From assembly GCF_037392515.1 (NCBI RefSeq), contig NC_090280.1, positions 19,318,618 to 19,382,617 of the forward strand: a stretch of DNA of 64,000 nucleotides, written 5' to 3'. This DNA comes from Haliotis asinina (taxonomy: Eukaryota > Mollusca > Gastropoda > Lepetellida > Haliotidae). Made by a program: the position numbers and the translations under genes. The notes beneath the pieces are model-generated. The model ran no database searches, was not told the DNA's origin, and saw only the letters and a list, made by a program, of their open reading frames with translations. Shown here one piece after another: positions 1-52,966 of this stretch. Within the stretch, counting starts at the first letter, position 1. Each line of letters begins with the position of its first letter.

Positions 1-116
1 TAATATATGCTTAGAGTACACATTTAAATCCAGTATACTTTCACATACATTAATGTTCTACATGCCCAGTTCTTTCCCTTTATATGATATATTCTATTTA
101 CAACAATCTGTTTCAG

Positions 117-1925
117 AATATGCATATTACGCCGTGGTTTCTGATCAAATTATGTTATCAACACCAGAATGGTATACACTTGAACATGAGTTTGCAGATG
201 GCCTTTGGTATCACTGTTTTACCCTGGATGTGTTTCCAGTTGTAGCAGATGTTCCGCGTAACACAGAGAAAGTCACCAGCACACATACCGGAACTACAAC
301 AACTACAGGGGTGCCTCTCTCTGCCACTACAACTGTCAACACTGACCAAAGTAATGGCTTTCATTTTCTAAAAGTATCATTGCAAGGAATTCTATCAATT
401 TCATTTCCTTTGAATAGGTAACGTACAACATGTGTTTTCTTTAACCCCACTCGAACCTCACTTGCACAACACATGTGGAAGACAGGGTTTCAGTTTGTTA
501 CCGACTGCCAGGAAATACATCAGTTTGGAAACTGAAATGGAATTTGATATTTCAGATGTTACTACAGTTGTCCTCTACATCATCGCTGGGTGTTGTGTCC
601 TGCTTTTTGTTCTGGCTGTAGTCATTATTGCAGCTGCTGTATTGATAAGGATCACACGACAAGGTAAGCTTATTTACTGTGCTCCTAAAACTAGATCACT
701 CTGTGGGTGACTGGGTTAGTTGTGCGCTACGCCACTGTGAATCCAACAAGAATGTGTTCGGTCCTGTACACACAGAATTAGTCACAAAACTAATACCTTC
801 ACTATCACTATACCTTCATTCTACCTTCTTTATTCTCATCTAATTATTATTGTTGTCACATATGTACTTATACAGGTATATCTGCTTCAAAGTTTTCTTC
901 TCCTGATGAAAGAGTAAAAATATACTCCAAACGTCGTGGGTGTCATTTTACAGATGTTGACATCAATAAATTGCAATTGTCACCTTTTTTATGTTTCATT
1001 TCTCAAAGTCATACAAAGACCTTTTAACATCAGTTTATAATCATTTTCCTGGCTCTGACCTGACCTTGTTTCCGTTCTTAAAATAATGGCAATTTAAGGG
1101 CGTTATTTCTATTATTTTTCAGATTCCTGGTACTTGAGGTAATGGTATTGTGTTTATTCTGTTTGTTCGAATCAATCATGAAATCTCCCTCCCTCATTTT
1201 AACATGTAACAAGGAAACATTTCCCTGCATTTTCCACTGTCATTTGACAGACCTATGCAGAAGCCCTTGGGAGTCTAGATGGAACTCGAACTTTACATGT
1301 TATATACATTCATATTTAAATGATAAACATGTAGCCTTTTGTATAGCATAGTATATTTGACAGGACACGACGATCGTACATCACACCCATGCTGAGCATG
1401 CCAGAAAACATGGACAGTCGAGGATATGCTGACATCGACGATGCTGATTTAAATAGACGTGGCGCAGGCAACATTGTGGAACCTGTTGGCAATATCCAAT
1501 CTGATGTCAACACACTACCTGTGTGTGGTGCGAATATCATTCGGGAAAGACAGCAGTTAGAACGTAGCCGCAGGAAGGTAGATGAGGATGACGAATATGA
1601 AGAGGTGAAACCACTGAACGTAATTAACACTGAAGAACTTACAGAACAAGACACTCAAATGCAGCAACCCAACAAGAAAACTAAGGAAAACATTACGGAT
1701 GAAATGAACAGAACATTTCTTGACACCTCTCCTCACTCAGATTCTGTGATTGTTCCTGCTCATTCATCAGTTCATAAAAGTGATTCTGGAAACATGGCAA
1801 GAGAGATTATCAATCTGAATGCCGAAACGCGCTTCATGACCCAAGATACTGAGGATGCAACCCTTGATACTGTTGATATGGAGGAGCTGTCAGCGATCAT
1901 AGAATTGTTTCCCGAAGCAGGATGA
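117..1925 (+). CDS. Ig-superfamily receptor copy A, 3' part only, truncated type-1 tail
   Basis: This is the 3' portion of a receptor gene whose signal-peptide, Ig and stalk exons lie left of the window. Visible exons, by alignment to copies F and G: membrane-proximal exon 117-350, transmembrane exon 556-663, 16-nt microexon 1123-1138, tail exon from 1364. Each has AG/GT borders and the phases match copy F. The transmembrane exon encodes a strongly hydrophobic helix with a GCCVLLFVLAVV core followed by basic residues. The tail keeps the YADI and YEEV tyrosine motifs. A 4-nt deletion near 1920, relative to F and G, gives a TGA stop at 1923-1925. The sequence up to the old stop at 2090-2092 is still present but out of frame, so the C-terminal YxxL pair is lost. 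A truncated receptor may still be made; whether it is expressed cannot be told from sequence. Confidence 0.7.
903..1016 (+). repeat. Hammerhead-ribozyme-like repeat remnant in intron 7 of copy A
   Basis: Between the transmembrane exon and the microexon lies a CTGATGA box (903-909), then a GAGTA/TACTC stem with an A-rich loop, then a CAAAC box. This resembles the CUGAUGA-stem-GAAA core of hammerhead ribozymes, with the G of GAAA changed to C. The same block occurs in copies E, F and G (near 33754, 40161 and 46248). A reading frame can be opened through it after a splice acceptor, but the frame differs in length and end between copies, so I treat it as intronic repeat rather than a coding exon. 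Confidence 0.35.
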
Positions 1926-2092: not shown

Positions 2093-4194
2093 TTTTCTAG
2101 CACATGGTTCAGGTGCTGCGTTAAACATAAAATAGAGTATTATGTTTTCTTGTACCACCCCATATTTGGATAGCCAATTCACGCTTGCTCGGAGATATTT
2201 CAATGAAAATCTGATATGTTCATTTTTCACTACCTGAGGATTTTTTTCCTTTCAAATTACAAAATATAACACTATGCTTTTGCTTTAACATCCGTGTGCA
2301 GATATTATTCATGTTAACTGTACATATTTTAGAACATTATACAACAAAGCGTATTAGTATTAGTGAAAGGTATCGTGTCATACATCGAAACACTAATGTT
2401 GTGACTAAATGCTTAATTAGTACTCTGACATGTGTTACATGTACTTCATAAGAAATGCATAATGTGACGTTTGTTTTGCTGATTGTTTATTAGCGTCACA
2501 CTCAGCAATATTCCAGCTTCAGTTCCCCACATGGGTACAATGTGTGAAGCCCATTTTAACTCAAGTAGTATCCTTTTTAAGTGTTAGACTATGGTTATTT
2601 TTAGATCTTGCCTAGTCCATTGCAGGTATAAGGGGTGTCAAGAGATTGTGTCATCGGTTGTGTTGTGCCCTTTGATTTTGTTTGACCCTTGCATGTCAGC
2701 CATTACACGTCATTTCAGTCCGACCGCATTTCAGAGCAACAGGCACCACAACATCTCAGATCTAAGGTAGGAACAATGTTTCAAGTATTGTATATATGTG
2801 TTGCATCAAATAACAATGTTATTAGTATCAGTTATATGTTCTTGATGGTAATAAAATTAGTTAAAGTACATTGGTGCAATTATAAATATTATGCACAGGC
2901 ATTTCTTGTAAGTAGACTACCATGCAGTATTATTTACAAATAAGGCCAATGCTTATAGGTGTGTTGAAATGTACGTTTGTGTATTTGTTGATATTGTAAC
3001 GAATCATTTATGCTTAGGTTATTCTGTATGCCGTAGTTCAGTGACTTAACTGAAAATGCACTAACGTTGTAAATCCCTTTGAATGCCCACGCAAATGATG
3101 AGTTTACGTGGTCTGTGTAGATCCCCACGTATAACCATGTTATTATTCTCACACAGTGTTCAGTCATGTATTTTGTATATATACATATTTAGAATATTGA
3201 GACTTTGGTTTGCTTGTCCTTGTAGCATTCGTCTATTCATCTTGGGAGACGTGGCTTTCCTACACCCCTGTGTCACGCACAGGGTATGAATAATATTATT
3301 GTGTCATATATATAAAGTATCTATGTTCACCACATAGCTGATAGATTTGGGCTAATGTGCTTAACCAGTTTCACTACATCTGTGTGTACGTTGGTACGAC
3401 GTATTTGAAACGTTTTTATAGTGCCGAGGAGTTATCGTTCTTGGCGATTCAGTCATCGTGTCAATGGTAATATAACTATTACCGCATTACTGATCGTGCG
3501 TCTGTTCGTAGTGTTTTCATATGAGATTTATCTCTTATATGTTAGAAATGATATGCGAGATGGAATGAGTGTATATAATTATTTATATTTATATGTTTAT
3601 CCTGAATTTGGTACTTATTCTCCAAACATGTGTTTCAGGGTGTCTGTCAATAAAGATATAGATCCCACAACCCGTAATCAGTGTCTGGTCGTCACTATAG
3701 CCATTCACATCCCGGTTACAATATGATGGTATTGTACATATGATGCTTCGCATTTTATTTCCTTCAATGAAATGTGTAAGTCGTATTAGTTTTTGGTGTC
3801 GTCATCGTTGTAGTGATATGTAGTCTGAACGGACACGAAGGAGAGAAATATGCATTCAGTTATCTGGCTCCGTCTTGTCTGTTTCGGTATATTTCATAAT
3901 TACCCCTATTTGTGTGGGATCTGAAACACTGCATGTCCTCAGACTAAAGCTACAGTTTAGTATCAAGTTTAACATTAATGTCATAGTACAGCAATCAAGC
4001 TAAGTTAAAATACAAGTAACTTCGTATTTTAAAATGTCACAATTTCCACTTGCACGAAAAGACTACACTGAGCCATTTATGTCAGAGAATGTTTCGTAAA
4101 ATGCTTCCTCCTTCGTGGATGGGTCAACGTGCTCAAGCTGTTTTCTGAAAAGGAAGTTTAACAGTAAGAAAATAAAGACAGTACACGAGCCGCC
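2093..4194. other. Spacer between receptor copies A and B
   Basis: 2093-2552 is the conserved 3' flank shared with copies E, F and G, ending in a SINE-like fragment (2505-2552). 2553-3720 is unlike the spacers of the other copies and I recognise nothing in it. From 3721 the sequence again matches the 5' flank of copies F, G and H. The LINE-tail fragment found in the E-F, F-G and G-H spacers is absent. No gene is seen. Confidence 0.6.
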
Positions 4195-4248
4195 ATGGAC
4201 CCGATAAGTCCACTCATTCTTCAGTAATTATCAAATTATAGCTGACGA

Positions 4249-4394
4249 TGGGGTAGCCTTATGGTCAAATCGTACACGCGCCACACCACAGACCCGGGTT
4301 CGATTCCCCACATGGGCACAATGTGTGAAGCCCATTTCTGGTGTCCCCACCGTGATATTGCAGGAAAATACCTCACGGCGGCGTAAAAGTAAAC
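4249..4394 (+). repeat. tRNA-derived SINE in intron 1 of copy B
   Basis: A tRNA-like head has an A-box-like GGGTAGCCTTATGG and a B-box-like GGGTTCGATTCC. It is followed by a conserved core (GTGTCCCCACCGTGATATTG) and a GGCGTAAAAGTAAA tail. The same insertion sits at the same place in copies F, G and H (36987-37130, 43078-43221, 49129-49272), so it predates their duplication. Copy E keeps only its first about 40 bp. Confidence 0.8.
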
Positions 4395-7119
4395 ATATAG
4401 TTCCACGGAAACCGCTGTACATGCATTACTATTGCTATATCGCAATGATAAGCTGATCCTCTTTATTAATACATCATATGACGGCTATGATGCTGTCCAA
4501 TGTGGAGCTGAGATGAAAAGTGAGGTTTTTTTTAAGGTCACAGGAAGGAACAGATTCATCTGGACGTGGATACTTGCTGGTATTTGTGTTTCTATGATTC
4601 TAACTGGATGTGGGCCGGAGGCTCAGAGTAAGTCAAATAAGTGAAACTGATGATTGTAGATTATCTTACTCATCGGTTTGATGTTCTTATTATGTTATAT
4701 TGCTATCGGTGTGTTATGTCATTTTAATACAAACTACTTAGAAACATAACAAATCCAGGTTTTCATTTGTAAGCATAACTTCAATGTGTGTGCGGTATCA
4801 CACACATAAAGGGTAAACTGTTGTATTAAATGCGATAGGTTACATTTACCCTTTGAAGCAGCCACAACCTGTATTTACAGATTATGTGTATGAGCCTTAC
4901 ATCGTGTCTCCGGAGAGAGTCCTGCACGGCAGAGATGTCAACCTGACATGCCACATTTTGACTGACGTAAAGTTCCTCAATTACATCTCATTCACGTGGA
5001 AGAAAAACGATGAACGATTTATCCATGGGGGTAATTATGAGACAAGGTCGGGGTCCGGGTCATTTATAAACAACATATACAAATACTACACCAGTACTCT
5101 GACAGTGAAAGCCACGAGGATGACTGATAAAGGAACGAGATATACGTGTCAAGTTGAAGTGGCATTTAGAGCAAGGACGTCGTCCTTTGACACTGACGAC
5201 TACATATTGGGATACGAAGGTGAGTCCGCTATAAGGTATTATTATTATTGAACAAAAAGACATTTATTGCAAACAGTACTATTCCAGTGAACACGTTACA
5301 GATAAACATTCCATGACATCATAACTGAAGAATGGTAATCTTAATTTACAACAAATGAAAATTGCCTGTAAATTGCTGAATATGCTAGAGTATTCTCTCA
5401 ATGTGGTTATTTCAGTCCCATCTACTACAAACACAACTGTACGTGAAGGTGAAAATGTTGCCATATTCCTGACATGGAGGACGACATATGATGTGATTGG
5501 GTTCTGGTCTCCAAGTGGTGAACTCATTGCCACCATACAATCTAGCACTGTCTATATCTGGCCAAACAGTCGATCGAAAGTGAAGGTCAGCAGATTGTTC
5601 ACATCACACTACCAGAAAACAGTTGAGTTTGTGATCTACAATGCTACAAAGGAGGATGCTGGACGTTATTACTTGTTGGATTTCGAGCAAAAAGACTTTC
5701 ATGGTGGACACAACTTTGTTATTGCTGGTAAGTCTCGAGTATATGTTTTAATATGTAAAACATTATCAACAGAATGTCCTTTTTTCGTATATTCTTTGCT
5801 GCACAAGTGCAATAGAAAATCGCTGTCATGCAAATCTGTTTAAGCTCAAGATATCTTCAAGGCTGCTACAGACCAAACCGGTAACAGACGCAGTCGATCA
5901 GGTTTACCATTAGGTGGTTTTGAAATCTAATACATGTACACTCGCTTATCGAGGGATCAGAGACATGATTAGTGTTAGAGAGGTGAATAATGAATTGAAG
6001 CCTTCAAAATACATGAACAACATAAATACAGCCATAAGTATATACGTGGAAATAGGCGTGATGTCTCGGCTAAACAACCGTTATGTATTTCAAATTTCAA
6101 ACAAAGTATCAGCTTTTGTACCATGTTGAAAGTAAAGACTAGTGTTCATGATGGGTGATAGATTTGTGCATGTAGCCACTGTTAGTACTCTCTTCAAAGA
6201 TCCTCAGTATATAAGGCGCAATAAACACTGAATTGTTCGGGATGTATCTTCGCTTTCAGATCGTAAGAGTACAAAGGTGACAACTAATTCTGTACCTTCC
6301 ACCGAGGCTCAAACGACATTCGAAACGGCGGATCTAGTCTCCAGACCGTCAGCAAGTACTCAAGGTACCTGACAATAACGAGCTTTCTTGTAACAAAATG
6401 TTGTTCAGGATCACTGTCATACCCAACTGTTTCCAAACCCCGAAAACATTACATCTACACCAGATCGTAAACAGTTGATTTAAAGAAATGCACGAAACAT
6501 AATATATGCTTAGAGTACACATTTAAATCTAGTATACTTTCACATACATTAATGTTCTACATGCCCAGTTCTTTCCCTTTATATGATATATTCGATTTAC
6601 AATAAAACTGTTTCAGAATATGCATATTACGCCGTGGTTTCTGATCAAATTATGTTATCAACACCAGAATGGTATACACTTGAACATGAGTTTGCAGATG
6701 GCCTTTGGTATCACTGTTTTACCCTGGATGTGTTTCCCGTTGTAGCAGATGTTTGATATTTCAGATGTTACTACAGTTTTCCTCTACATCATCGCTGGGT
6801 GTTGTGTCCTTCATATTGTTCTGGCTGTGTTCATCGTTGCAGCTGTTGAGGATGAAACAACAAGGTAATGTTATGTAGTTTTTAGTCTATTTAAACGAGT
6901 GAGTGAATGTCTCAATGAATCCCGCGACCATGTGTGAAGTCCTCTATTCCCGGACCACAAGCAGGTCGAGTTTCTGTTTCTTTTGCACCGACAGGATTCT
7001 ACATCTCGACGACAAACTTTTCCAACTCCGATAACTTTAATATCCAAGCTCGAATACACCCTACATCAAGACCTACATGTACGAGAAAGCTTTGAGCCGC
7101 ATACCGTGTTACAGACTAA

Positions 7120-7225
7120 TGTGTGGGTGAGTTCAACTTTTCGCCACTTTTACTGATACTCGGGCAACATCACGGTGGAGGACACCAGACATACCAGGGC
7201 TCCTGATATTGTACCTATGTGGGGA
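7120..7225 (-). repeat. SINE fragment, minus strand
   Basis: A reverse-oriented SINE tail and core (cgccacttttactg, then caacatcacggtggaggacacc) lies in the intron before the type-2 tail exon of copy B. The paralogous position in copy H is 52320-52425. Confidence 0.6.
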
Positions 7226-7706
7226 AACGAACTTAGATCGGCAGCAGGAGGAACAAGCCTTTTAACCTATTGGCTACCAGACTGCCCCTGTTCTAAACGA
7301 AGCCAAACCGCAACTAAAAGTATTGTTCACTTTTGCAGATGATCACCAACGTAGAACCCCTGCAACATCTACGACATCGAACATCGTTCAATGTCAACGG
7401 TATGACGTCGTTGACTGTTTACGTCTTGGTGGTACTGAAGACAGTCAGCTGTATGCTGCAAATAGTTTAGGATACCACACATTGAACTTCAAACGTTTCA
7501 ACAGGGTGAATGAATTCGACCTTACAGATACCAGTACTACCAGGAACAGAGAAGTACCACTGGAACAAGACTCATTGAATAATGAATATCTTCGTTATGG
7601 TTCCATTTCCATGTCCATTTCGATTTCAATCCGGTGGGAAATATCTGACTATGTCAAGAAAAAATACGGACCAGACTTTTGCTTGCGAAATGTTAGATTT
7701 TTTTAA

Positions 7707-15764: not shown

Positions 15765-15872
15765 TTAAAATCTTTTGGAATGGGAAGATGGTTTGATATT
15801 AATCTGGAAAACAGAATATGTACAATTCTTAAAAAGTAATGTTATTTGCAATAAGTTTCATGTTATCTCATC

Positions 15873-16375
15873 CATGTACTCATCAAAATGATGAATATGA
15901 AGAGATGAGTCCACTCAACGCTACCAACAGAGAGGAACGCCCAAGAGAGCAAGAACGGAGAGCCAAAATACAGCAACCTGACACGGAAATCAAGGAACCC
16001 ATTAAGGATCAGATAACCCTGATATTACCCGACTCACAACCTCATGCAGAACGTAGGACTGTTGCTGCTCATAGGTCACCTGAAGGAAGAGAGTTTGGAC
16101 ATTTGGCAGAAGCGACTATAAATCAGTTTGAAGAAACAGGCTTCATGACTCAAGAACCTGATGAAACAGACACTGACAAGTTACTTGCGGCCAGTATGGA
16201 ATATATTCTGGAACCGGTGGGACGACAGCAGGTGAGACAGAAGCGGATCTTCCCTTGGTGGTCGGAAGAGAGGATTCTGCATGAAACGCTTGATTTACCG
16301 TGCAACAGATATGAGAGTCTAATGTCGCCACAGTCTGCTTACACAGCCTACTTACACAGCCTTGGACAATGCTGA
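15873..16375 (+). pseudogene. Fragment C: diverged type-1 receptor tail
   Basis: This is an open frame homologous to the type-1 tail exon of copies A and E-G: DEYEEMSPLNATNREE parallels DEYEEVKPLNVINTEE, FMTQEPDETDTD parallels FMTQDTEDATLD, and NRYESLMSP parallels TTYDSLMPH. The second YxxL of the pair is degenerate (AYLHSLGQC end). It starts abruptly at about 15873, where homology to the block downstream of copy H ends, and no Ig, stalk or transmembrane exon precedes it. Its 3' flank matches fragment D. I read it as the end of a rearranged gene copy of a separate subfamily. Confidence 0.6.
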
Positions 16376-19868: not shown

Positions 19869-20419
19869 TGGATATGTGGAGTGAGTGAGTTAACATTTAA
19901 CGTCACATCGGCAGTATTGCAGCCATATCGTGACGAGAGCATTCTTAAAAAAGGAATCTATGTATATGATAAAACCTGTCGACGAAGGACAGTAAAACAA
20001 CTAGAATATCACAATAAGAAATAAAACTAGCGTGAAAAGTTAAAACTAATATTCCTATTCAGACAATACAATATAAAAACAGGCTATATAGATCACCAAC
20101 AACTGAAGGTAGATCACCATACTAGGGGCTATGGGGACTTACAGTACTTCTGCTACCTGTATGGTCCCTAGCTGGATTTACATCATCCCCTCAGCTGCTG
20201 GTGATTGTATGCAAGATTAGCCACAAATTAAAATGACACATATTCTACGGCTAAGACAAAATGGAAGATCAAATTCGACTTCAAATATTTTGGGTCTTAC
20301 GTACCCTCTCAGGAGGACAATAATTTTACAGTGCTTTAACCCCCCTCGAGGATACAGCCACTAACACTCTAAGTTACTAATTCAAACTCCCAAGCATAAA
20401 ATATTTATCTATTTACAAT

Positions 20420-24061: not shown

Positions 24062-24099
24062 TCCTCTGCAGTTCCACTGTACAATATTATTGGAATAAA

Positions 24100-33600: not shown

Positions 33601-34936
33601 GACTTGGTCAACTCCCGGCTTGTACTTCCTCTTTGTTAGTAGCACGTATTCAACTACTGGCTTTCCTTGTTAAGTGTCCGCCATTCTCATCTAATTATTA
33701 TTGTTGTCGCATATGTACTTATACAGGTATATCTGCTTCAAAATTTTCTTCTCCTGATGAAAGAGTAAAAGTATACTCCAAACGTCGTGGGCGTCATTTT
33801 ACAGATGTTGACGTCAATAAATTGTCACCTTTTTATGTTTCATTTCTGAAAGCCATTCAAAGACCTTTAACATCAGTTTATAATCATTTTCCTGGCTCTG
33901 ACCTTGTTTTCGTTTTTAAAATAATGCCAGTCATAAAACCTTAAGGGCGTTATTTCTATTATTTTTCAGATTCCTGGTACCTGAGGTAACGGTATTCTTT
34001 TTATTCTGCAGGTGTTCAAATCAATCATAAAATCTCCCTCCCTCATTTTAACATGTAACAAGGAAACATTCCCCTGCATTTTCCACTGTCATTTGACAGA
34101 CCAATGCAGAAGCCCTTGGGAGTCTAGATGGAACTCGAACTTTACATGTTATATACATTCATATTTAAATGATAAACATGTAGCCTTCTGTATAGCATAG
34201 TATATTTGACAGGTCACGACGATCGTACATCACACCAATGCAGAGCATGCCAGAAAACATGGACAGTCGAGGATATGCTGACATCGACGATGCTGATTTA
34301 CCTACACGTGGCCCTGGCAACATTGTGGAACCTGTTGGCAATATCCAATCTGATGTCAACACACCACCTGTGTGTGGTGCGAGTATCATTCGAGAAAGAC
34401 AACAGTTAGAACGTAGCTGCAGGAAGGTAGATGAGGATGACGAATATGAAGAGGTGAAACCACTGAACGTAATCAACACTGAAGAACAAGACGCTCAAAT
34501 GCAGCAACCTGACAAGAAAATTAAGGAAGACAATACGGATGAAATGAGCAAAACATTCCTTGACACCTCTTCTCACTCAGATCCTGTGATTGTTCTTGCT
34601 CATTCATCAGTTCATAAAAGTGATTCTGGAAACATGGCAAGAGAGATTATCAACCTGAATGCCGAAACACGCTTCATGACCCAAGATACTGAGGATGCAA
34701 CCCTTGATACTGTTGATATGGAGGAGCTGTCAGCGACCATAGAATTGTTTCCCGAAGCAGGAAGGATGACAGCAAACATTACAGGAGTACATGACATAGC
34801 GATGGAAGGAAGAGAGGATAACGCTGAAATTGTAGAACTTGGTGCACCTAGCACCACGTATGTCAGTCTGACGCCGCATAGATCTGGTAGCACGTACATG
34901 GCGCTGAAAACATCGGGTGACACAGCGGATGATTAG
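30675..34936 (+). pseudogene. Ig-superfamily receptor copy E (type-1 tail), start region disabled
   Basis: Exons: 30675-30683, 30858-30948, 31129-31449 (Ig 1), 31663-31974 (Ig-like 2), 32508-32612 (stalk), 32864-33097 (membrane-proximal), 33293-33400 (transmembrane), 33970-33985 (microexon), 34213-34936 (tail). Total 1920 nt, divisible by three, and open except for TAG at 30882-30884, where the other copies encode Trp in the signal peptide. The exon-1 donor is TTATGT instead of GTAAGT. Ig 1 is 6 residues shorter, with LTF instead of LTC, so the first core Cys is gone. The tail keeps YADI, YEEV and the YVSL-8-YMAL pair, and lacks one Glu-Leu-Thr. Only the start region is dead; the rest looks maintained, so it may be a young pseudogene, a donor for gene conversion, or expressed from another start. 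Confidence 0.8.
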
Positions 34937-36931: not shown

Positions 36932-39900
36932 ATGGACCTGGTAAGTCCGCTCATTCTTCAGTAATTATCAAATTATAGCTGACGATGGGGTAGCCTTATG
37001 GTCACATCGTACACGCGTCACACCAAAGACCTGGGTTCGATTCCCCACATGGGCACAATGTGTGAAGCCCATTTCTGGTGTCCCCACCGTGATATTGCAG
37101 GAAAATAGCTCACGGCGGCGTAAAAGTAAACATATAGTTCCACGGAAACCGCTGTACATGCATTACTATTGCTATATTGCAATAATAAGCTGATCCTCTT
37201 TATTAATACATCATATGACCGCTATGATGCTGTCCAATGTGGAGCTGAGATGAAAAGTGTGTTTTTCTAAGGTCACAGGAAGGAACAGATTCATCTGGAC
37301 TTGGATACTTGCTGGAATTTGTGTTTCTGTGATTCTAACTGGACGTGGACCGGATGCTCAGAGTAAGTCAAATAAGTGAAACTGATGATTGTAGATTATC
37401 TTACTTATCGGTTTGTTGTTCTTATTATGTTATATTGCTATCGGTGTGTTATGTCATTTTAATACAAACTACTTACAAACATAACAAACCCAGGTTTTCA
37501 TTTGTAGGCCTAATTTCAATGTGTGTTCTGTATCACACACATAACGGGTAAACTGTTGTATTAAATGCGATAGGTTACATTTACCCTTTGAAGCAGCCAC
37601 AACCCGTATTTACAGATTATGTGTATGAGCCTTACATCGTGTCTCCGGAGAGAGTCCTGCACGGCAGAGATGTCAACCTGACATGCCACATTTTGACTGA
37701 CGTAAAGTTCCTCAATTACATCTCATTCATGTGGAAGAAAAACGATGAACGATTTATCCATGGGGGTAATTATGAGACAAGGTCGTGGTCCGGGTCATTT
37801 ATAAACAACATATACAAATACTTCACCAATACTCTGACAGTGAAAGCCACGAGTATGACTGATAAAGGAACGAGATATACGTGTCAAGTTGAAGTGGCAT
37901 TTGGAGCAAGGACGTCGTCCTTTGACACTGACGACTACATACTGGGATACGAAGGTGAGTCCGCTATAAGGTATTATTATTATTGAGCAAAACGACATTT
38001 ATTGCAAACAGTACTATTCCAGTGAACACGTTACAGGTAAACATTCCATGACATCATAACTGAAGAATGGTAATCTTAATTTACAACAAATAAAAATTGC
38101 CTGTAAATTGCTGAATGGATATGCTGGAGTATTCTCTCAATGTGGTTATTTCAGTCCCATCTACTACAAACACAACTGTACATGAAGGTGAAAATGTCGC
38201 CATATTCCTGACATGGAGGGCGACATATGATGGGATTGGGTTCTGGTCTCCAAGTGGTGAACTCATTGCCACCATACAATCTAGCACTGTCTATATCTGG
38301 CCAAACAGTCGATCAAAAGTGAAGGTCAGCAGACTGCTCACATCACCCTACCAGAAAACAGTTGAGTTTGTGATCTACAATGCTACAAAGAAGGATGCTG
38401 GACGTTATTACTTGATGGATTTCAAGCAAAAAGACTTTCATGGTGGACACGACCTGATTATTGCTGGTAAGTCTCGAGTATATGTTTTAATATGTAAAAC
38501 ATTATCAACAGAATGTCCTTTTTCGTGTATTCTTTGCTGCACAAGTGCAATAGAAAATCGCTGTGATGCAAATATGTTTAAGCTCAAGATATCTTCAAGG
38601 CTGCTACAGACCAAACCGGTAACAGACGCAGTCGATCAGGTTTACCATTAAGTAGTTTTGAAATGTAATACGTGTACACTCGCTTATCGAGGGATCAGAG
38701 ACATGATTAGTGTTAGAGAGGTGAATAATCAATTGAAGCCTTCAAAACACGTGAACAATATGAATACAGCCATAAGTGTATACGTGGAAATAGGCGTGAT
38801 GTCACGGCTAAACAACCGTTATGTGTTTCAATTTTCAAACAAAGTATCAGCTTATAATTATGTAAAAGTAAAGACTAGTGTTCATGATGGGTGATAGATT
38901 TGTGCATGTAGCCACTGGTAAACGCATCCACGAAAGTTGTTAGTATTCTCTTCAAAGATCCTCAGTATATAAGGCGCAATAAACACTGAATTGTTCGGGA
39001 TGTATCTTCGCTTTCAGATCGTAAGAGTACAAAGGTGACAACTAATTCTGTACCTTCCACCGAGGCTCAAACGACATTCGAAACGGCGGATCTAGTCTCC
39101 AGACCGTCAGCAAGTACTCAAGGTACCTGACAATAACGAGCTTTCTTGTAACAAAATGTTGTTGAGGATCACTGTCATACTCAACTGTTTCAAAACCCCG
39201 AAAACATTACATCTACACCAGATCGTAAACAGTTGATTTAAAGAAATGCAAGAAACATAATATATGCTTAGAGTACACATTTAAATCTAGTATACTTTCA
39301 CATACATTAATGTTCTACATGCCCAGTTCTTTCCCTTTATATGATATATTCGATTTACAACAATCTGTTTCAGAATATGCATATTACGCCGTGGTTTGTG
39401 ATCAAATTATGTTATCAACACCAGAATGGTATACACTTGAAAATGAGTTTGCAGATGGCCTTTGGTATCACTGTTTTACCCTGGATGTGTTTCCCGTTGT
39501 AGCAGATGTTCCGCGTAACACAGAGAAAGTCACCAGCACACATACGGGAACTGCAACAACTACAGGGGTGCCTCTCTCTGCCACTACAACTGTCAACACT
39601 GACCAAAGTAATGGCTTTCATTTTCTAAAAGTATCATTGCAAGGAATTCTATCAATTTCATTTCCTTTGAATAGGTAACGTACAACATGTGTTTTCTTTA
39701 ACCCCACTCGACCCTCACTTGCACAACACAATGTGGAAGACAGGGTTTCAGTTTGTTACCGACTGCCAGGAAATACATCAGTTTGGAAACTGAAATGGAA
39801 TTTGATATTTCAGATGTTACTACAGTTGTCCTCTACATCATCGCTGGGTGTTGTGTCCTGCTTTTTGTTCTGGCTGTAGTCATTATTGTAGCTGCTGTAT

Positions 39901-41356
39901 TGATAAGGATCACACGACAAGGTAAGCTTATTTACTGTGCTCCTAAAACCAGATCACTCTGTGGGTGACTGGGTTAGTTGTGCGCTACGCCACTGTGAAT
40001 CCAACAAGAATGTGTTCGGTCCTGTACACACAGAATTAGTTACAACACTCATACCTTCACTATCACTTTACCTTCATTCTACCTTCTTTATTCTCATCTA
40101 ATTATTATTGTTGTCACATAGGTACTTATACAGCTATATCTGCTTCAAAGTTTTCTTCTCCTGATGAAAGAGTAAAAATATACTCCAAATGTCGTGGGTG
40201 TCATTTTACAGATGTTGACATGAATAAATTGCAATTGTCACCTTTTGTATGTTTCATTTCTGAAAGTCATACAAAGACCTTTTAACATCAGTTTATAATC
40301 ATTTTCCTGGCTCTGACCTGACCTTGTTTCCGTTCTTAAAATAATGGCAATTTAAGGGCGTTATTTCTATTATTTTTCAGATTCCTGGTACCTGAGGTAA
40401 TGGTATTCTGTTTATTCTGCAGGTGTTCGAATCAATCATAAAATCTCCCTCCCTCATTTTAACATGTAACAAGGAAACATTTCCCTGCATTTTCCACTGT
40501 CATTTGACAGACCTATGCAGAAGCCCTTGGGAGTCTAGATGGAACTCGAACTTTACATGTTATATACATTCATATTTAAATGATAAACATGTAGCCTTCT
40601 GTATAGCATAGTATATTTGACAGGACACGACGATCGTACATCACACCCATGCAGAGCATGCCAGAAAACATGGACAGTCGAGGATATGCTGACATCGACG
40701 ATGCTGATTTACCAAGACGTGGCGCAGGCAACATTGTGGAACCTGTTGGCAATATCCAATCTGATGTCAACACACCACCTGTGTGTGGTGCGAATATCAT
40801 TCGAGAAAGACAGCAGTTAGAACGTAGCTGCGGGAAGGTAGATGAGGATGACGAATATGAAGAGGTGAAACCACTGAACGTAATCAACACTGAAGAACTT
40901 ACAGAACAAGACACTCAAATGCAGCAACCCGACAAGAAAATTAAGGAAAACATTACGGATGAAATGAACAGAACATTTCTTGACACCTCTCCTCACTCAG
41001 ATTCTGTGATTGTTCCTGCTCATTCATCAGTTCATAAAAGTGATTCTGGAAACATGGCAAGAGAGATTATCAATCTGAATGCCGAAACGCGCTTCATGAC
41101 CCAAGATACTGAGGATGCAACCCTTGATACTGTTGATATGGAGGAGCTGTCAGCGATCATAGAATTGTTTCCCGAAGCAGGAAACATGACAGCAAACATT
41201 ACAGGAGTACATGACATAGCGATGGAAGGAAGAGAGGATAACGCTGAAATTGTAGCACTTGGTGCACCTAGCACCACATATGACAGTCTGATGCCGCACA
41301 GATCTTGTAGCACGTACATGGCGTTGAAAACACTGGGTGACACAGCGGATGATTAG
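36932..41356 (+). CDS. Ig-superfamily transmembrane receptor copy F, ITAM-like tail, complete
   Basis: Nine exons: 36932-36940, 37272-37362, 37616-37954, 38155-38466, 39018-39122, 39374-39607, 39814-39921, 40381-40396, 40624-41356. They join to 1947 nt, 648 residues, with no stop and GT-AG at every junction. The start codon has a GCCGCCATGG context. Signal peptide 1-33 (TWILAGICVSVILTG core). Ig domain 34-146 has LTC, MWKK and DKGTRYTC. Ig-like domain 147-250 lacks both core Cys but keeps DAGRYY. Ser/Thr stalk 251-285; unassigned membrane-proximal region 286-363 ends Thr-rich; helix about 367-393; tail 400-648. Tail tyrosines: YADI (426), YEEV (483), YDSL (624) and YMAL (636), the last two spaced as an ITAM. 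I infer a cell-surface recognition receptor signalling through tyrosine phosphorylation; no ligand can be deduced. Confidence 0.88.
36987..37130 (+). repeat. tRNA-derived SINE in intron 1 of copy F
   Basis: Same insertion as 4249-4394, with B-box-like GGGTTCGATTCC and the same core and tail. It sits between the 9-nt first exon and the signal-peptide exon. Confidence 0.8.
38966..38973 (+). promoter_or_regulatory. TATA-like box in intron 4 of the receptor genes
   Basis: TATATAAG, followed by gcgcaataaacact, lies about 45-52 bases before the stalk exon. It is present in copies B, E, F, G and H. Conservation here mostly reflects overall similarity of the copies, so a promoter for a short Ig-less form is only a possibility. 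Confidence 0.2.
40381..40396 (+). other. 16-nt microexon of copy F
   Basis: The exon attcctggtacctgag has a strong acceptor (ttatttttcag) and donor (gtaatg). It enters in phase 1 and leaves in phase 2. It is the only connection I found that joins the phase-1 transmembrane exon to the tail exon, whose open frame needs phase 2. It encodes Asp-Ser-Trp-Tyr-Leu. It is present in A (1123-1138, one synonymous change), E (33970-33985) and G (46440-46455). Confidence 0.75.
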
Positions 41357-43022: not shown

Positions 43023-46000
43023 ATGGACCTGGTAAGTCCGCTCATTCTTCAGTAATTATCAAATTATAGCTGACGATGGGGTAGCCTTATGGTCACATCG
43101 TACACGCGTCACACCAAAGACCTGGGTTCGATTCCCCACATGGGCACAATGTGTGAAGCCCATTTCTGGTGTCCCCACCGTGATATTGCAGGAAAATAGC
43201 TCACGGCGGCGTAAAAGTAAACATATAGTTCCACGGAAACCGCTGTACATGCATTACTATTGCTATATTGCAATAATAAGCTGATCCTCTTTATTAATAC
43301 ATCATATGACCGCTATGATGCTGTCCAATGTGGAGCTGAGATGAAAAGTGTGTTTTTCTAAGGTCACAGGAAGGAACAGATTCATCTGGACTTGGATACT
43401 TGCTGGAATTTGTGTTTCTGTGATTCTAACTGGACGTGGACCGGATGCTCAGAGTAAGTCAAATAAGTGAAACTGATGATTGTAGATTATCTTACTTATC
43501 GGTTTGTTGTTCTTATTATGTTATATTGCTATCGGTGTGTTATGTCATTTTAATACAAACTACTTACAAACATAACAAACCCAGGTTTTCATTTGTAGGC
43601 CTAATTTCAATGTGTGTTCTGTATCACACATATAACGGGTAAACTGTTGTATTAAATGCGATAGGTTACATTTACCCTTTGAAGCAGCCACAACCCGTAT
43701 TTACAGATTATGTGTATGAGCCTTACATCGTGTCTCCGGAGAGAGTCCTGCACGGCAGAGATGTCAACCTGACATGCCACATTTTGACTGACGTAAAGTT
43801 CCTCAATTACATCTCATTCATGTGGAAGAAAAACGATGAACGATTTATCCATGGGGGTAATTATGAGACAAGGCCGGGGTCCGGGTCATTTATAAACAAC
43901 ATATACAAATACTTCACCAATACTCTGACAGTGAAAGCCACGAGTATGACTGATAAAGGAACGAGATATACGTGTCAAGTTGAAGTGGCATTTGGAGCAA
44001 GGACGTCGTCCTTTGACACTGACGACTACATACTGGGATACGAAGGTGAGTCCGCTATAAGGTATTATTATTATTGAGCAAAAAGACATTTATTGCAAAC
44101 AGTACTATTCCAGTGAACACGTTACAGGTAAACATTCCATGACATCATAACTGGAGAATGGTAATCTTAATTTACAACAAATACAAATTGCCTGTAAATT
44201 GCTGAATATGCTGGAGTATTCTCTCAATGTGGCTATTTCAGTCCCATCTACTACAAACACAACTGTACATGAAGGTGAAAATGTCGCCATATTCCTGACA
44301 TGGAGGGCGACATATGATGGGATTGGGTTCTGGTCTCCAAGTGGTGAACTCATTGCCACCAAACAATCTAGCACTGTCTATATCTGGCCAAACAGTCGAT
44401 CAAAAGTGAAGGTCAGCAGACTGCTCACATCACCCTACCAGAAAACAGTTGAGTTTGTGATCTACAATGCTACAAAGAAGGATGCTGGACGTTATTACTT
44501 GATGGATTTCAAGCAAAAAGACTTTCATGGTGGACACGACCTGATTATTGCTGGTAAGTCTCGAGTATATGTTTTAATATGTAAAACATTATCAACAGAA
44601 TGTCCTTTTTCGTGTATTCTTTGCTGCACAAGTGCAATAGAAAATCGCTGTGATGCAAATATGTTTAAGCTCAAGATATCTTCAAGGCTGCTACAGACCA
44701 AACCGGTAACAGATGCAGTCGATCAGGTTTACCATTAAGTAGTTTTGAAATGTAATACGTGTACACTCGCTTATCGAGGGATCAGAGACATGATTAGTGC
44801 TAGAGAGGTGAATAATCAATTGAAGCCTTCAAAACACGTGAACAATATGAATACAGCCATAAGTGTATACGTGGAAATAGGCGTGATGTCAAGGCTAAAC
44901 AACCGTTATGTGTTTCAATTTTCAAACAAAGTATCAGCTTATAATTATGTAAAAGTAAAGACTAGTGTTCATGATGGGTGATAGATTTGTGCATGTAGCC
45001 ACTGGTAAACGCATCCACGAAAGTTGTTAGTATTCTCTTCAAAGATCCTCAGTATATAAGGCGCAATAAACACTGAATTGTTCGGGATGTATCTTCGCTT
45101 TCAGATCGTAAGAGTACAAAGGTGACAACTAATTCTGTACCTTCCACCGAGGCTCAAACGACATTCGAAACGGCGGATCTAGTCTCCAGACCGTCAGCAA
45201 GTACTCAAGGTACCTGACAATAACGAGCTTTCTTGTAACAAAATGTTGTTGAGGATCACTGTCATACTCAACTGTTTCAAAACCCCGAAAACATTACATC
45301 TACACCAGATCGTAAACAGTTGATTTAAAGAAATGCAAGAAACATAATATATGCTTAGAGTACACATTTAAATCTAGTATACTTTCACATACATTAATGT
45401 TCTACATGCCCAGTTCTTTCCCTTTATATGATATATTCGATTTACAACAATCTGTTTCAGAATATGCATATTACGCCGTGGTTTGTGATCAAATTATGTT
45501 ATCAACACCAGAATGGTATACACTTGAACATGAGTTTGCAGATGGCCTTTGGTATCACTGTTTTACCCTGGATGTGTTTCCCGTTGTAGCAGATGTTCCG
45601 CGTAACACAGAGAAAGTCACCAGCACACATACGGGAACTGCAACAACTACAGGGGTGCCTCTCTCTGCCACTACAACTGTCAACACTGACCAAAGTAATG
45701 GCTTTCATTTTCTAAAAGTATCATTGCAAGGAATTCTATCAATTTCATTTCCTTTGAATAGGTAACGTACAACATGTGTTTTCTTTAACCCCACTCGACC
45801 CTCACTTGCACAACACAATGTGGAAGACAGGGTTTCAGTTTGTTACCGACTGCCAGGAAATACATCAGTTTGGAAACTGAAATGGAATTTGATATTTCAG
45901 ATGTTACTACAGTTGTCCTCTACATCATCGCTGGGTGTTGTGTCCTGCTTTTTGTTCTGGCTGTAGTCATTATTGTAGCTGCTGTATTGATAAGGATCAC

Positions 46001-47415
46001 ACGACAAGGTAAGCTTATTTACTGTGCTCCTAAAACTAGATCACTCTGTGGGTGACTGGGTTAGTTGTGCGCTACGCCACTGTGAATCCAACAAGAATGT
46101 GTTCGGTCCTGTACACACAGAATTAGTTACAACACTCATACCTTCACTATCACTTTACCTTCATTCTACCTTCTTTATTCTCATCTAATTATTATTGTTG
46201 TCACATAGGTACTTATACAGCTATATCTGCTTCAAAGTTTTCTTCTCCTGATGAAAGAGTAAAAATATACTCCAAATGTCGTGGGTGTCATTTTACAGAT
46301 GTTGACATGAATAAATTGCAATTGTCACCTTTTGTATGTTTCATTTCTGAAAGTCATACAAAGACCTTTTAACATCAGTTTATAATCATTTTCCTGGCTC
46401 TGACCTGACCTTGTTTCCGTTATTTCTATTATTTTTCAGATTCCTGGTACCTGAGGTAATGGTATTCTGTTTATTCTGCAGGTGTTCGAATCAATCATAA
46501 AATCTCCCTCCCTCATTTTAACATGTAACAAGGAAACATTTCCCTGCATTTTCCACTGTCATTTGACAGACCTATGCAGAAGCCCTTGGGAGTCTAGATG
46601 GAACTCGAACTTTACATGTTATATACATTCATATTTAAATGATAAACATGTAGCCTTCTGTATAGCATAGTATATTTGACAGGACACGACGATCGTACAT
46701 CACACCCATGCAGAGCATGCCAGAAAACATGGACAGTCGAGGATATGCTGACATCGACGATGCTGATTTACCAAGACGTGGCGCAGGCAACATTGTGGAA
46801 CCTGTTGGCAATATCCAATCTGATGTCAACACACCACCTGTGTGTGGTGCGAATATCATTCGAGAAAGACAGCAGTTAGAACGTAGCTGCGGGAAGGTAG
46901 ATGAGGATGACGAATATGAAGAGGTGAAACCACTGAACGTAACCAACACTGAAGAACTTACAGAACAAGACACTCAAATGCAGCAACCCGACAAGAAAAT
47001 TAAGGAAAACATTACGGATGAAATGAACAGAACATTTCTTGACACCTCTCCTCACTCAGATTCTGTGATTGTTCCTGCTCATTCATCAGTTCATAAAAGT
47101 GATTCTGGAAACATGGCAAGAGAGATTATCAATCTGAATGCCGAAACGCGCTTCATGACCCAAGATACTGAGGATGCAACCCTTGATACTGTTGATATGG
47201 AGGAGCTGTCAGCGATCATAGAATTGTTTCCCGAAGCAGGAAACATGACAGCAAACATTACAGGAGTACATGACATAGCGATGGAAGGAAGAGAGGATAA
47301 CGCTGAAATTGTAGCACTTGGTGCACCTAGCACCACATATGACAGTCTGATGCCGCACAGATCTTGTAGCACGTACATGGCGTTGAAAACACTGGGTGAC
47401 ACAGCGGATGATTAG
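43023..47415 (+). CDS. Ig-superfamily transmembrane receptor copy G, ITAM-like tail, complete
   Basis: Nine exons: 43023-43031, 43363-43453, 43707-44045, 44242-44553, 45105-45209, 45461-45694, 45901-46008, 46440-46455, 46683-47415. They join to 1947 nt, 648 residues, uninterrupted. Domain order is identical to copy F. Differences are few: Pro for Ser at ETRPGSG in Ig 1, TKQSS for TIQSS in Ig-like 2, EHEF for ENEF in the membrane-proximal region, and NVTNTE for NVINTE in the tail. Introns and spacers are nearly identical to copy F too, so F and G separated very recently or are being homogenised by gene conversion. Intron 7 has a 28-nt deletion between two cgtt tetramers. The tail keeps YADI, YEEV, YDSL and YMAL. 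Confidence 0.88.
43078..43221 (+). repeat. tRNA-derived SINE in intron 1 of copy G
   Basis: Orthologous in position to 36987-37130, with the same tRNA-like head, core and tail. Confidence 0.8.
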
Positions 47416-49073: not shown

Positions 49074-52000
49074 ATGGACCTGGTAAGTCCGCTCATTCTT
49101 CAGTAATTATCAAATTATAGCTGACGATGGGGTAGCCTTATGGTCACATCGTACACGCGTCACACCAAAGACCTGGGTTCGATTCCCCACATGGGCACAA
49201 TGTGTGAAGCCCATTTCTGGTGTCCCCACCGTGATATTGCAGGAAAATAGCTCACGGCGGCGTAAAAGTAAACATATAGTTCCACGGAAACCGCTGTACA
49301 TGCATTACTATTGCTATATTGCAATAATAAGCTGATCCTCTTTATTAATACATCATATGACCGCTATGATGCTGTCCAATGTGGAGCTGAGATGAAAAGT
49401 GTGTTTTTCTAAGGTCACAGGAAGGAACAGATTCATCTGGACTTGGATACTTGCTGGAATTTGTGTTTCTGTGATTCTAACTGGACGTGGACCGGATGCT
49501 CAGAGTAAGTCAAATAAGTGAAACTGATGATTGTAGATTATCTTACTTATCGGTTTGTTGTTCTTATTATGTTATATTGCTATCGGTGTGTTATGTCATT
49601 TTAATACAAACTACTTACAAACATAACAAACCCAGGTTTTCATTTGTAGGCCTAATTTCAATGTGTGTTCTGTATCACACACATAACGGGTAAACTGTTG
49701 TATTAAATGCGATAGGTTACATTTACCTTTTGAAGCAGCCACAACCTGTATTTACAGATTATGTGTATGAGCCTTACATCGTGTCTCCGGAGGGAGTCCT
49801 GCACGGCAGAGATGTCAACCTGACATGCCACATTTTGACTGACGTAAAGTTCCTCAATTACATCTCATTCATGTGGAAGAAAAACGATGAACGATTTATC
49901 CATGGGGGTAATTATGAGACAAGGTCGGGGTCCGGGTCATTTATAAACAACATATACAAATACTTCACCAATACTCTGACAGTGAAAGCCACGAGTATGA
50001 CTGATAAAGGAACGAGATATACGTGTCAAGTTGAAGTGGCATTTGGAGCAAGGACGTCGTCCTTTGACACTGACGACTACATACTGGGATACGAAGGTGA
50101 GTCCGCTATAAGGTATTATTATTATTGAGCAAAAAGACATTTATTGCAAACAGTACTATTCCAGTGAACACGTTACAGGTAAACATTCCATGACATCATA
50201 ACTGAAGAATGGTAATCTTAATTTACAACAAATAAAAATTGCCTGTAAATTGCTGAATGGATATGCTGGAGTATTCTCTCAATGTGGTTATTTCAGTCCC
50301 ATCTACTACAAACACAACTGTACGTGAAGGTGAAAATGTTGCCATATTCCTGACATGGAGGGCGACATATGATGGGATTGGGTTCTGGTCTCCAAGTGGT
50401 GAACTCATTGCCACCATACAATCTAGCACTGTCTATATCTGGCCAAACAGTCGATCTAAAGTGAAGGTCAGCAGATTGTTCACATCACCCTACCAGAAAA
50501 CAGTTGAGTTTGTGATCTACAATGCTACAAAGGAGGATGCTGGACGTTATTACTTGATGGATTTCAAGGAAAAAGACTTTCATGGTGGACACGACCTGAT
50601 TATTGCTGGTAAGTCTCGAGTATATGTTTTAATATGTAAAACATTATCAACAGAATGTCCTTTTTCGTGTATTCTTTGCTGCACAAGTGCAATAGAAAAT
50701 CGCTGTGATGCAAATCTGTTTAAGCTCAAGATATCTTCAAGGCTGCTACAGACCAAACCGGTAATAGACGCAGTCGATCAGGTTTACCATTAGGTGGTTT
50801 TGAAATGTAATACGTGTACACTCGCTTATCGAGGGATCAGAGACATGATTAGTGTTAGAGAGGTGAATAATCAATTGAAGCCTTCAAAACACGTGAACAA
50901 TATGAATACAGCCATAAGTGTATACGTGGAAATAGGCGTGATGTCAAGGCTAAACAACCGTTATGTGTTTCAATTTTCAAACAAAGTATCAGCTTATGTA
51001 CCATGTTTAAAGTAAAGACTAGTGTTCATGATGGGTGATAGATTTGTGCATGTAGCCACTGGTAAACGCATCCACGAAAGTTGTTAGTATTCTCTTCAAA
51101 GATCCTCAGTATATAAGGCGCAATAAACACTGAATTGTTCGGGATGTATCTTCGCTTTCAGATCGTAAGAGTACAAAGGTGACAACTAATTCTGTACCTT
51201 CCACCGAGGCTCAAACGACATTCGAAACGGCGGATCTAGTCTCCAGACCGTCAGCAAGTACTCAAGGTACCTGACAATAACGAGCTTTCTTGTAACAAAA
51301 TGTTGTTGAGGATCACTGTCATACTCAACTGTTTCAAAACCCCGAAAACATTACATCTACACCAGATCGTAAACAGTTGATTTAAAGAAATGCAAGAAAC
51401 ATAATATATGCTTAGAGTACACATTTAAATCTAGTATACTTTCACATACATTAATGTTCTACATGCCCAGTTCTTTCCCTTTATATGATATATTCGATTT
51501 ACAACAATCTGTTTCAGAATATGCATATTACGCCGTGGTTTCTGATCAAATTATGTTATCAACACCAGAATGGTATACACTTGAACATGAGTTTGCAGAT
51601 GGCCTTTGGTATCACTGTTTTAACCTGGATGTGTTTCCCGTTGTAGCAGATGTTCCGCGTAACACAGAGAAAGTCACCAGCACACATACGGGAACTGCAA
51701 CAACTACAGGGGTGCCTGTTTCTGCAGATACAACTGTCAACACTGACCAAAGTAATGGCTTTCATTTTCTAAAAGTATTATTGCAAGGAATTCTATCAAT
51801 TTCATTTCCTTTGAATAGGTAACGTACAACATGTGTTTTCTTTAACCCCATTCGACCCTCACGTGCACAACACATGTGGAAGACAGGGTTTCAGTTTGTT
51901 ACCGACTGCCACGAAATACATCAGTTTGGAAACTGAAATGGAATTTGATATTTCAGATGTTACTACAGTTGTCCTCTACATCATCGCTGGGTGTTGTGCC

Positions 52001-52966
52001 CTGCTTATTGTTCTGGCTGTAGTCATCGTTGCAGCTGTTGTATTGATGAGGATGAAACAACAAGGTAATGTTATGTAGTTTTTAGTCTATTCAAACGAGT
52101 GAGTGAATGTCTCAATGAATCCCGCGACCATGTCTGAAGTCCCCTATTCCCGGACCACAAGCAGGTCGAGTTTCTGTTTCTTTTGCAAGGACAGGATTCT
52201 ACATCCCGATGACAAACCTTTCCAACTTCGATAACTTTAATATCCAAGCTCGCATACACCCTACATCAAGACCTACATGTACGAGAAAGCTTTGAGCCGC
52301 ATACCGTGTTACAGACTAATGTGTGGATAAGTTCAACTTTTCGCCACTTTTACTGATATTCGGGCAACATCACGGTGGAGGACACCAGACATACCAGGGC
52401 TCCTGATATTGTACCTATGTGGGGAAACGAACTTAGATCGTCAGCAGGAGGAACAAACCTTTTAACCTATTGGCTACCAGACTGCCCCTGTTCTAAAGCA
52501 AGCCAAACCACAACTAAACGTATTGTTTCCTGTTGCAGATGATCACCAACGTAGAACCCCTGCAACATCTACGACATCGAACATCGTTCAGTGTCAACGG
52601 TATGACGTCGTTGACTGTTTACGTCTTGGTGGTACTGGAGACAGTCAGCTGTATGCTGCAAATAGTTTAGGATACCACACATTGAACTTCAAACGTTTCA
52701 ACAGAGTGAATGAGTTCGACCTTACAGATACCAGTACTACCAGGAGCAGAGAAGTACCACTGGAACAAGACTATGAACCAGTCGCCCTCATGGGCCATGG
52801 ACCTGTCCCGAACTGTACTCAGCAACACTCAGATCATGAAGAAGAGCATAATGATTCCGTACCTTTGTGTAGCTTGTATGATAATGATCAGCGTGAGACA
52901 GATGTTTGTGGATATGCACAGTGTGTGGTTGTCGCTGGTAACGCACCGATGATGTCTGTTGAATGA
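49074..52966 (+). CDS. Ig-superfamily transmembrane receptor copy H, ITIM-like tail, complete
   Basis: Eight exons: 49074-49082, 49414-49504, 49758-50096, 50297-50608, 51162-51266, 51518-51751, 51957-52064, 52539-52966. They join to 1626 nt, 541 residues, uninterrupted. The ectodomain is nearly the same as F and G (Ig 1 with LTC, MWKK and YTC; Cys-less Ig-like 2; stalk; membrane-proximal region). After the transmembrane exon the gene is unrelated to F and G: the helix ends VVLMRMKQQ and a single phase-1 exon encodes a 142-residue tail. Tyrosine sites: YDVV (421), LGYHTL (445, ITIM consensus), YEPV (478) and LYDND (513, a pYxN Grb2-type site). There is no microexon. I infer an inhibitory or adaptor-recruiting partner of the type-1 receptors. 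A damaged copy of the same form is copy B. Confidence 0.87.
49129..49272 (+). repeat. tRNA-derived SINE in intron 1 of copy H
   Basis: Orthologous in position to the SINEs of copies B, F and G. Confidence 0.8.
52320..52425 (-). repeat. SINE fragment before the type-2 tail exon
   Basis: Reverse-oriented SINE core (caacatcacggtggaggaca), paralogous to 7120-7225 in copy B. Confidence 0.6.

Follow-up and report, generated by a model that had tools for sequence, protein, structure and literature searches.

An abalone cluster of immunoglobulin-type receptor genes with near-identical ectodomains on two unrelated cytoplasmic tails

Introduction

Paired receptors, known from vertebrates, have been described as an answer to pathogens that exploit inhibitory receptors (PMC5112662). 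In their way of working, CEACAM1/CEACAM3 (PMC2832619), the ceacams of Xenopus (PMC5112662) and Siglec-11/Siglec-16 (PMC5701461) come closest to the system described here, an array of single-pass immunoglobulin (Ig) receptor genes in a 64,000-nucleotide stretch (the window) of the 1.14-Gb genome of the abalone Haliotis asinina (contig NC_090280.1, hereafter C1, positions 19318618-19382617). As those sources present them, the vertebrate receptors have in common with the abalone array clustered Ig genes, matched ectodomains on different tails and gene conversion, and CEACAM also has one tail with a tyrosine pair of the ITAM (immunoreceptor tyrosine-based activation motif) type. The systems differ in that kinship is shown only at the Ig fold, the sign of the second abalone tail is a prediction, and the homogenised tract in abalone comprises the whole ectodomain with its introns, whereas single N exons are described for Xenopus (PMC5112662). 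We liken the abalone array to paired receptors rather than file it as a member, its opposing signals being predicted only. The reading that we favour, and advance tentatively, is that this Haliotis cluster is organised and works like paired receptors, with two tails, tail 1 and tail 2, signalling differently on a shared ligand.

Several invertebrate systems offer partial parallels. Among molluscs, the oyster Ig receptors CgIgIT2/IgIT likewise combine a helix with a tail of ITAM or inhibitory type, and they act in haemocytes (PMC11999971); CgIgIT2, inhibitory according to reference 93 of that review and ITAM-bearing according to its text, differs in having five Ig domains, and the accessible part of the review reports no matched tandem pair. 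In Biomphalaria, PTC1/GRC, PTC2 and linked clusters encode gastropod single-pass receptors, some with Ig domains (PMC7494358, PMC10875847). As described there, these are defined by allelic hyperdiversity and schistosome resistance, and some include FN3, TMEM154 or lectin parts; in our Pfam searches, TMEM154 gave a sub-threshold match in the Haliotis rubra protein P0004 and none in the H. asinina copy G. The Ig cluster on scaffold 9 of the pearl oyster often encodes a C-terminal transmembrane domain and varies in copy number between haplotypes; its members differ in often containing FN3, and tails and pairing are not described in the accessible text (PMC9646362). The fester co-receptors of Botryllus and the Alr proteins of Hydractinia are clustered Ig receptors with ITIM (immunoreceptor tyrosine-based inhibition motif), hemITAM or core tyrosine motifs, some Botryllus loci switching between ITIM and hemITAM through splicing; they differ in serving allorecognition in colonial animals and in their domain sets (PMC12065747, as far as its text was accessible).

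Results

The array that a sequence-only reading of the window had proposed is real. It is built of head-to-tail tandem units of about 6 kb and comprises eight copies (A-H), all on the plus strand; F, G and H are the only ones without damage. Copy G (43023..47415) has nine exons. Exon 1 (43023..43031) encodes a Met-Asp-Leu start, and H. rubra protein P0001 likewise starts MDL; exon 2 (43363..43453) encodes a signal peptide by hydropathy, exon 3 (43707..44045) an Ig1 domain with a Cys pair, exon 4 (44242..44553) a V-set-like Ig2 domain without cysteines, exons 5 (45105..45209) and 6 (45590..45694) a Ser/Thr-rich stalk, and exon 7 (45901..46008) a transmembrane helix whose core lacks charged residues. 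Exon 8 (46440..46455) is a 16-nt micro-exon running from phase 1 to phase 2, and exon 9 (46683..47415) encodes tail 1, with the motifs SYITP, YADI, YEEV and YDSL-x8-YMAL, the last forming an ITAM core. Copy F (36932..41356), also of nine exons and with tail 1, contains exons 1-2 (36932-36940, 37272-37362), Ig1 (37616-37954), Ig2 (38155-38466), stalk (39018-39122, 39503-39607), helix (39814-39921), micro-exon (40381-40396) and tail 1 (40624-41356). Copy H (49074..52966) has eight exons: exons 1-4 (49074-49082, 49414-49504, 49758-50096, 50297-50608), exons 5-6 (51162-51266, 51647-51751), the helix exon 7 (51957..52064) and a different tail exon, tail 2 (52539..52966), which encodes QRYDVV, LGYHTL, QDYEPV and YDN. 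Every intron is bounded by GT-AG (8/8 in F, 8/8 in G and 7/7 in H), exons 3-7 are all of phase 1-1, and the frames are open from ATG to stop over 605, 605 and 498 residues. The predicted domain order (signal peptide, Cys-paired Ig1, cysteine-less Ig2, Ser/Thr stalk, helix, long tail) and the spliceability of the three frames were thereby upheld, but the lengths first given (648, 648 and 541 residues) exceed ours by 43 residues each, a segment not visible in H. rubra proteins.

Those earlier models need the micro-exon between the helix exon and tail 1, which was adopted because H. rubra proteins carry a counterpart (RQ-DYWNLR-S); indeed, these proteins share the exon joins of the G model, micro-exon included. 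There are 28 in-frame candidate exons in F and 28 in G, with GTAA or GTGA donors in three and two of them, respectively, and apart from the micro-exon none has a visible counterpart in the H. rubra proteins. A 50-nt exon at 46209-46258, between helix and tail, was rejected: with acceptor 46683 the tail goes out of frame. An interim 621-residue G model (this 50-nt exon plus acceptor 46671) served for Pfam and the first protein-database search, and the final 605-residue model for a later one. Intron 1 contains a repeated element (43060-43230, with equivalents at this site in the other copies and similar words near 47850), which presumably resembles a tRNA-derived abalone SINE (short interspersed nuclear element).

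The search with the 621-residue model, in which scores were given for the 7992 best candidates only, returned seven H. rubra proteins with E down to 1e-160, and all proteins returned at E 1e-3 by this and the later database searches were from Haliotis. With these matches and the common exon joins, the coherence of the gene models is far beyond chance. The family members among database entries are H. rubra LOC124274006, 008, 012, 054 and 057, LOC124279053 and a hemicentin-1-like entry; these uncharacterized proteins and the annotated H. asinina protein P0008 belong to the same family by their common exons and tails, and are database entries without assigned function. In some annotated H. rubra models one symmetric phase-1 exon is left out, namely stalk exon 5 in P0001 and the helix exon in both P0005 and P0006; these are possibly soluble isoforms or annotation errors. 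As the sequence-only reading had suspected, no named family for these receptors was found in the open-licence literature. No link to selection scans for abalone herpesvirus was found in the accessible text of PMC9327721, where immunoglobulin, hemicentin and LOC12427 each have 0 occurrences, and the terms looked for in PMC11250055 had no occurrence either. On these sequence comparisons, the family has so far been seen only in Haliotis.

Ig1 of copy G matches PF00047 above the cutoff (2.2e-8), which places it in the immunoglobulin superfamily, and Ig2 is assigned as V-set-like by predicted fold only. The signal peptide and one helix, the latter at residues 293-329 in the predicted structure of H. 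rubra P0002, give a single-pass type I layout. The predicted models have low confidence (mean pLDDT, the predicted local distance difference test score, 49.7 for the whole of P0002, with Ig parts mostly at about 65-80, and 62.9 for the exon 4 model), and the fold matches are for this reason supportive, not proof. Those made via P0002 cover mainly model residues 104-223. Thus, the proposal that exons 3 and 4 both encode Ig folds stands for exon 3 by Pfam and for exon 4 by a low-confidence predicted fold, Ig1 being hardly covered by the fold matches. Pfam found no fibrinogen or C-type lectin domain in G. The VIgL proteins (FREP/CREP) are secreted and join Ig to a fibrinogen or C-type lectin domain; G, with a membrane helix and without such Pfam domains, falls outside that definition. 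The best sequence match among solved structures is Dpr-interacting protein alpha (E 9.7e-4), and the fold matches include nectin-like and NCAM2 domains, as would suit an ordinary abalone adhesion or neural-wiring family of the Ig superfamily whose tyrosines serve trafficking or cytoskeletal coupling. We consider such a family unlikely, given the restriction to Haliotis of the proteins returned in the searches described above; moreover, adhesion molecules do not usually combine near-identical tandem copies and pseudogenes with a conserved ITAM-core pair.

The array encodes two unrelated tail types: tail 1 in F, G and E, cut in A, and tail 2 in H, broken in B. They are about 20% alike, the level of unrelated sequences, and both are present in H. 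rubra, where the counterpart of tail 1 is 66% and that of tail 2 72-74% identical. The single tyrosine-rich tail first described is thus right as to the tyrosines, which occur in both, but overlooked that H and B differ from the other copies. Genome-wide, the tail 1 exon has at least 8 matches, all within C1:19.229-19.367 Mb (copy A counted as two pieces, relic D not among them), and the tail 2 exon at least 2, in H and the truncated B; these counts, like that for Ig2 below, are lower bounds. The tail-exon tyrosines of G occupy columns invariant in six aligned sequences in 5/5 cases, against 46/219 other columns (p 5e-4); the micro-exon tyrosine is not conserved. The last two tyrosines of tail 1 form YxxL-x8-YxxL, within the ITAM core YxxL/I-x(6-8)-YxxL/I, in 7/7 C-terminally complete tails (F/G counted once, E, P0004, P0006, P0007, P0008 and L005). 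This motif has a shuffle p of 0.004-0.011 per tail, the tails being homologues and hence not independent. The YxxL pair is missing from P0001 and P0003, whose models end earlier, and from A, where it was lost; in relic C it is degenerate. The four tail 2 motifs occur in 3/3 sequences.

Ectodomains are matched within each species irrespective of the tail that they carry. G (tail 1) and H (tail 2) are 98% identical in Ig1 and 95% in Ig2. In H. rubra, the corresponding Ig1/Ig2 values for P0001 (tail 1) are 83/83% against P0002 and 82/77% against P0005 (both tail 2), compared with 81/73% between the two tail-2 proteins themselves, while values between the species are 64-71%. In an unrooted tree of 10 ectodomains, one branch with 100/100 support splits the species and the tails interleave on both sides; a tail-2 clade was rejected (approximately unbiased test, p 1.9e-9). 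That tree lacks a distant outgroup, omits P0004 and P0006 and includes P0003 in part, and P0007 and P0008, whose ectodomains are different, entered no tree. With a distant outgroup and without A (11 rows), the clade of H. asinina copies had a bootstrap of 91 and an SH-aLRT support of 100.

Copy H itself is a mosaic, G-like in front (G over B at 80/102 informative sites) and B-like behind (B over G at 11/16; Fisher p 3e-4), with the switch inside its helix exon, near 52007. Furthermore, the blocks 1-13793 and 45345-59061 are collinear duplicates in which the genic parts show 173 mismatches over 6463 columns (95-97% identity) and the alignable flank pieces 632 over 4559 columns (73-85%); the genes were therefore homogenised after the block duplication. 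The homogenised tract extends over 3721..7572 on the plus strand, where B is 95-96% identical to H (48594-52772) between collinear flanks at 73-85%. In H. rubra, the ectodomains of P0004 and P0006 are only 30-34% alike to that of P0001, yet the stalk is 94-100%, tail 1 90-96% and, in P0004, the helix 89% alike, which indicates that ectodomains have been swapped over tails just as tails have under ectodomains. From the within-species ectodomain match, the mosaic switch in H and the retention of two tails, we infer that gene conversion holds the outsides alike while the tails stay distinct. The cluster thus contains, as paired receptors do, near-identical ectodomains on different tails, their similarity kept by recombination or gene conversion.

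The same data bear on a simpler explanation, a family of isotypes in which tandem Ig receptors carry two interchangeable, non-opposed tails acting as adaptor-binding variants, and concerted evolution is a by-product of unequal exchange. Homogenisation affects ectodomain exons and introns alike, beyond the ligand-binding exons, tail 2 has no motif beyond chance, and the near-identity of F and G (4 residues) could come from simple tandem duplication. Nevertheless, each of the two species has kept both tails alongside ectodomains that match within it, and the exchange in H ends at the helix exon. We regard the isotype explanation as a real possibility, if a somewhat doubtful one.

F and G are 99.6% identical over 4950 aligned bases. 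This identity, the full integrity of only three of the eight copies and the lack of an F, G or H protein among the database matches would also fit a decaying, mostly silent array in which F, G and H are partly an assembly duplication. That is highly improbable: even the pseudogene E keeps an open tail 1; between G and H, 9 of the first 320 residues differ, and H ends in a tail of its own; both tails are represented among the annotated H. rubra models; and the contig has a length of 106 Mb. Invertebrate allorecognition receptors, too, are reported to be of this type, with clustered genes, Ig domains and tyrosine motifs (PMC12065747), which raises the possibility of self/non-self or gamete recognition of the Botryllus fuhc co-receptor or Hydractinia Alr kind. 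The ectodomain diversity of F, G and H is low for such a role. Abalones, moreover, are solitary and do not fuse, so that a role of this kind appears very unlikely.

The remaining copies, which had been correctly reported as present, are damaged to various degrees. The window holds the 3' part of copy A (1..1925; exon 6 at 246-350, exon 7 at 556-663, exon 8 at 1123-1138 and exon 9 at 1364-1925), which begins about 2.1 kb before it, as had not been recognised, and is open for 539 aa; a 4-nt deletion cuts its tail 1 short before the YxxL pair. Copy B (4513..7572) retains Ig1 (4881-5219), Ig2 (5416-5727), stalk (6260-6364), the helix exon (6765-6864) and a partial tail 2 (7339-7572). Its exon 6 is deleted, the exon 1 donor is lost and the helix exon lacks 8 nt, which shifts the partial tail 2 out of frame; 324 aa remain open, with a stop 6 residues past the helix. 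An in-frame ATG at 4513 precedes exon 2, and B could start there; G has a stop at that place, and F, G and H rely on exon 1 (MDL). Copy E (30675..34936) is a pseudogene: its signal peptide is interrupted by a stop, and both the exon 1 donor and the first Ig1 Cys are gone. Relic C (15884..16348) is a degenerate tail 1 of the P0007/P0008 subfamily, and relic D (19269..27884) a broken gene of P0007/P0008 type, with Ig pieces at 19269-19343 and 25974-26303, helix at 26474-26572 and tail at 27328-27884. Between the pieces of D lies a minus-strand LINE (long interspersed nuclear element; 20420-25440), possibly a recent insertion, with two long open frames: one of 446 aa with zinc-knuckle-like motifs by eye, and one of 1235 aa in which Pfam identifies an endonuclease, a reverse transcriptase and an RNase H.

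Leftwards, the cluster continues on this contig for about another 89 kb, where P0008 (minus strand; first and last exons matching at 100%), isolated Ig exons and a plus-strand P0007-like gene were located; to the right, no family member was found in the readable part of the 40 kb examined. The Ig2 exon has at least 16 genome-wide matches. Copies A, B, E, F, G and H account for the six that reach 85% identity, and the rest, also on C1, are 24-38% alike. These weak relatives, at C1 13.80-14.07, 18.97-18.99 and 21.54 Mb (E 2e-8 to 9e-4), perhaps mark a wider Ig receptor neighbourhood. Two other genes were noted in the window. A Tc1/mariner-like DDE_3 transposase gene with one internal stop (8853-9905; Pfam assignment made on 9252-9902 only) lies in the duplicated flank beside copy B. 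A gene at 61025-62876 has two exons for chitin-binding peritrophin-A (CBM_14), of which the second only just exceeds the cutoff, and two more likely exons without a Pfam match; we take it to resemble shell-matrix or peritrophin-type genes.

Discussion

The paired-receptor-like reading starts from what sequence comparison has established, namely the genes with their two tails, found in both abalone species, the match of ectodomains within each of these, the recombination switch in the helix exon and the conservation of the tail tyrosines. In the mechanism that we propose, one ectodomain (Ig1, cysteine-less Ig2 and Ser/Thr-rich stalk) would be kept near-identical across neighbouring genes by gene conversion and mounted on two unrelated tails. 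The receptors would be displayed at the membrane, where Ig1/Ig2 may bind a ligand. In tail 1 receptors (F and G), the tyrosine pair could recruit a tandem-SH2 kinase of the Syk type; Syk/Zap70 homologues have been reported from invertebrates that also have Bcl10/CARD-CC, a group to which molluscs belong (PMC5978004). Tail 2 receptors (H) would answer the same ligand with a different signal, probably modulating or inhibitory, through single tyrosine motifs, and the balance of the two signals may set the response of the cell to a microbial or cellular ligand, in a putative role in defence. The most likely sites of action are haemocytes or mucosal epithelium, and for oysters, Ig receptors that signal in haemocytes have been reported, with an ITAM as well as with inhibitory action (PMC11999971). 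Copies A, with a cut tail, and B, with none, may be decoys or decaying genes. The opposing sign of the two signals is the weakest step of this mechanism.

Several findings weigh against this reading. The strict ITAM has an acidic residue at position -3 of the first Tyr, and F and G lack it (S-T-T-Y). The ITIM-consensus LGYHTL of tail 2, although found in 3/3 sequences, is not rarer than shuffling would give (p 0.22-0.37), and an inhibitory sign for tail 2 is unproved because this match lies at chance level; tail 1 of F, G and E likewise has one ITIM-consensus match each, also at chance level. No H. rubra model unites this ectodomain with a complete tail 1, as P0001 and P0003 stop before the YxxL pair and the complete H. 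rubra tails 1 (P0004, P0006 and P0007) are attached to other ectodomains, which lowered our confidence in the pairing. No protein of F, G or H was returned by database searches, though P0008 was. When A was added to the tree with the distant outgroup (12 rows), the bootstrap of the H. asinina clade was 56, with SH-aLRT at 100. Nei-Gojobori counts gave nothing convincing for positive selection: exon 3 yielded 1.66-1.68 for B against F/G/H, on 7 differences, and 0.80-0.83 for the pseudogene E against the others; exon 4 ranged from 0.38 to 1.28; tail 1 gave 0.52 (E-F) and 0.54 (E-G); the 3.4 of exon 7 for F/G-H rests on 10 differences in an exon that is recombinant; and the 4 residue differences between F and G, with 0 synonymous ones in the exons compared, are too few for a selection test.

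In summary, the interpretation offered by the sequence-only reading is partly supported, and the notion of an Ig array is sharpened to specific predictions: same ligand, different signal. A fuller form of the proposal, which we consider rather unlikely as it stands, is a molluscan paired-receptor system that arose independently of vertebrates, with activating (ITAM-core) and modulating (tail 2) receptors presenting the same ligand face, which gene conversion would keep alike in the manner of CEACAM1/3 and Siglec-11/16, and with A and B as decoy forms. If the paired-receptor reading were true, the occurrence of a vertebrate-like paired layout in a snail would open its independent origin to test, and abalone disease research would gain defined candidate recognition receptors.

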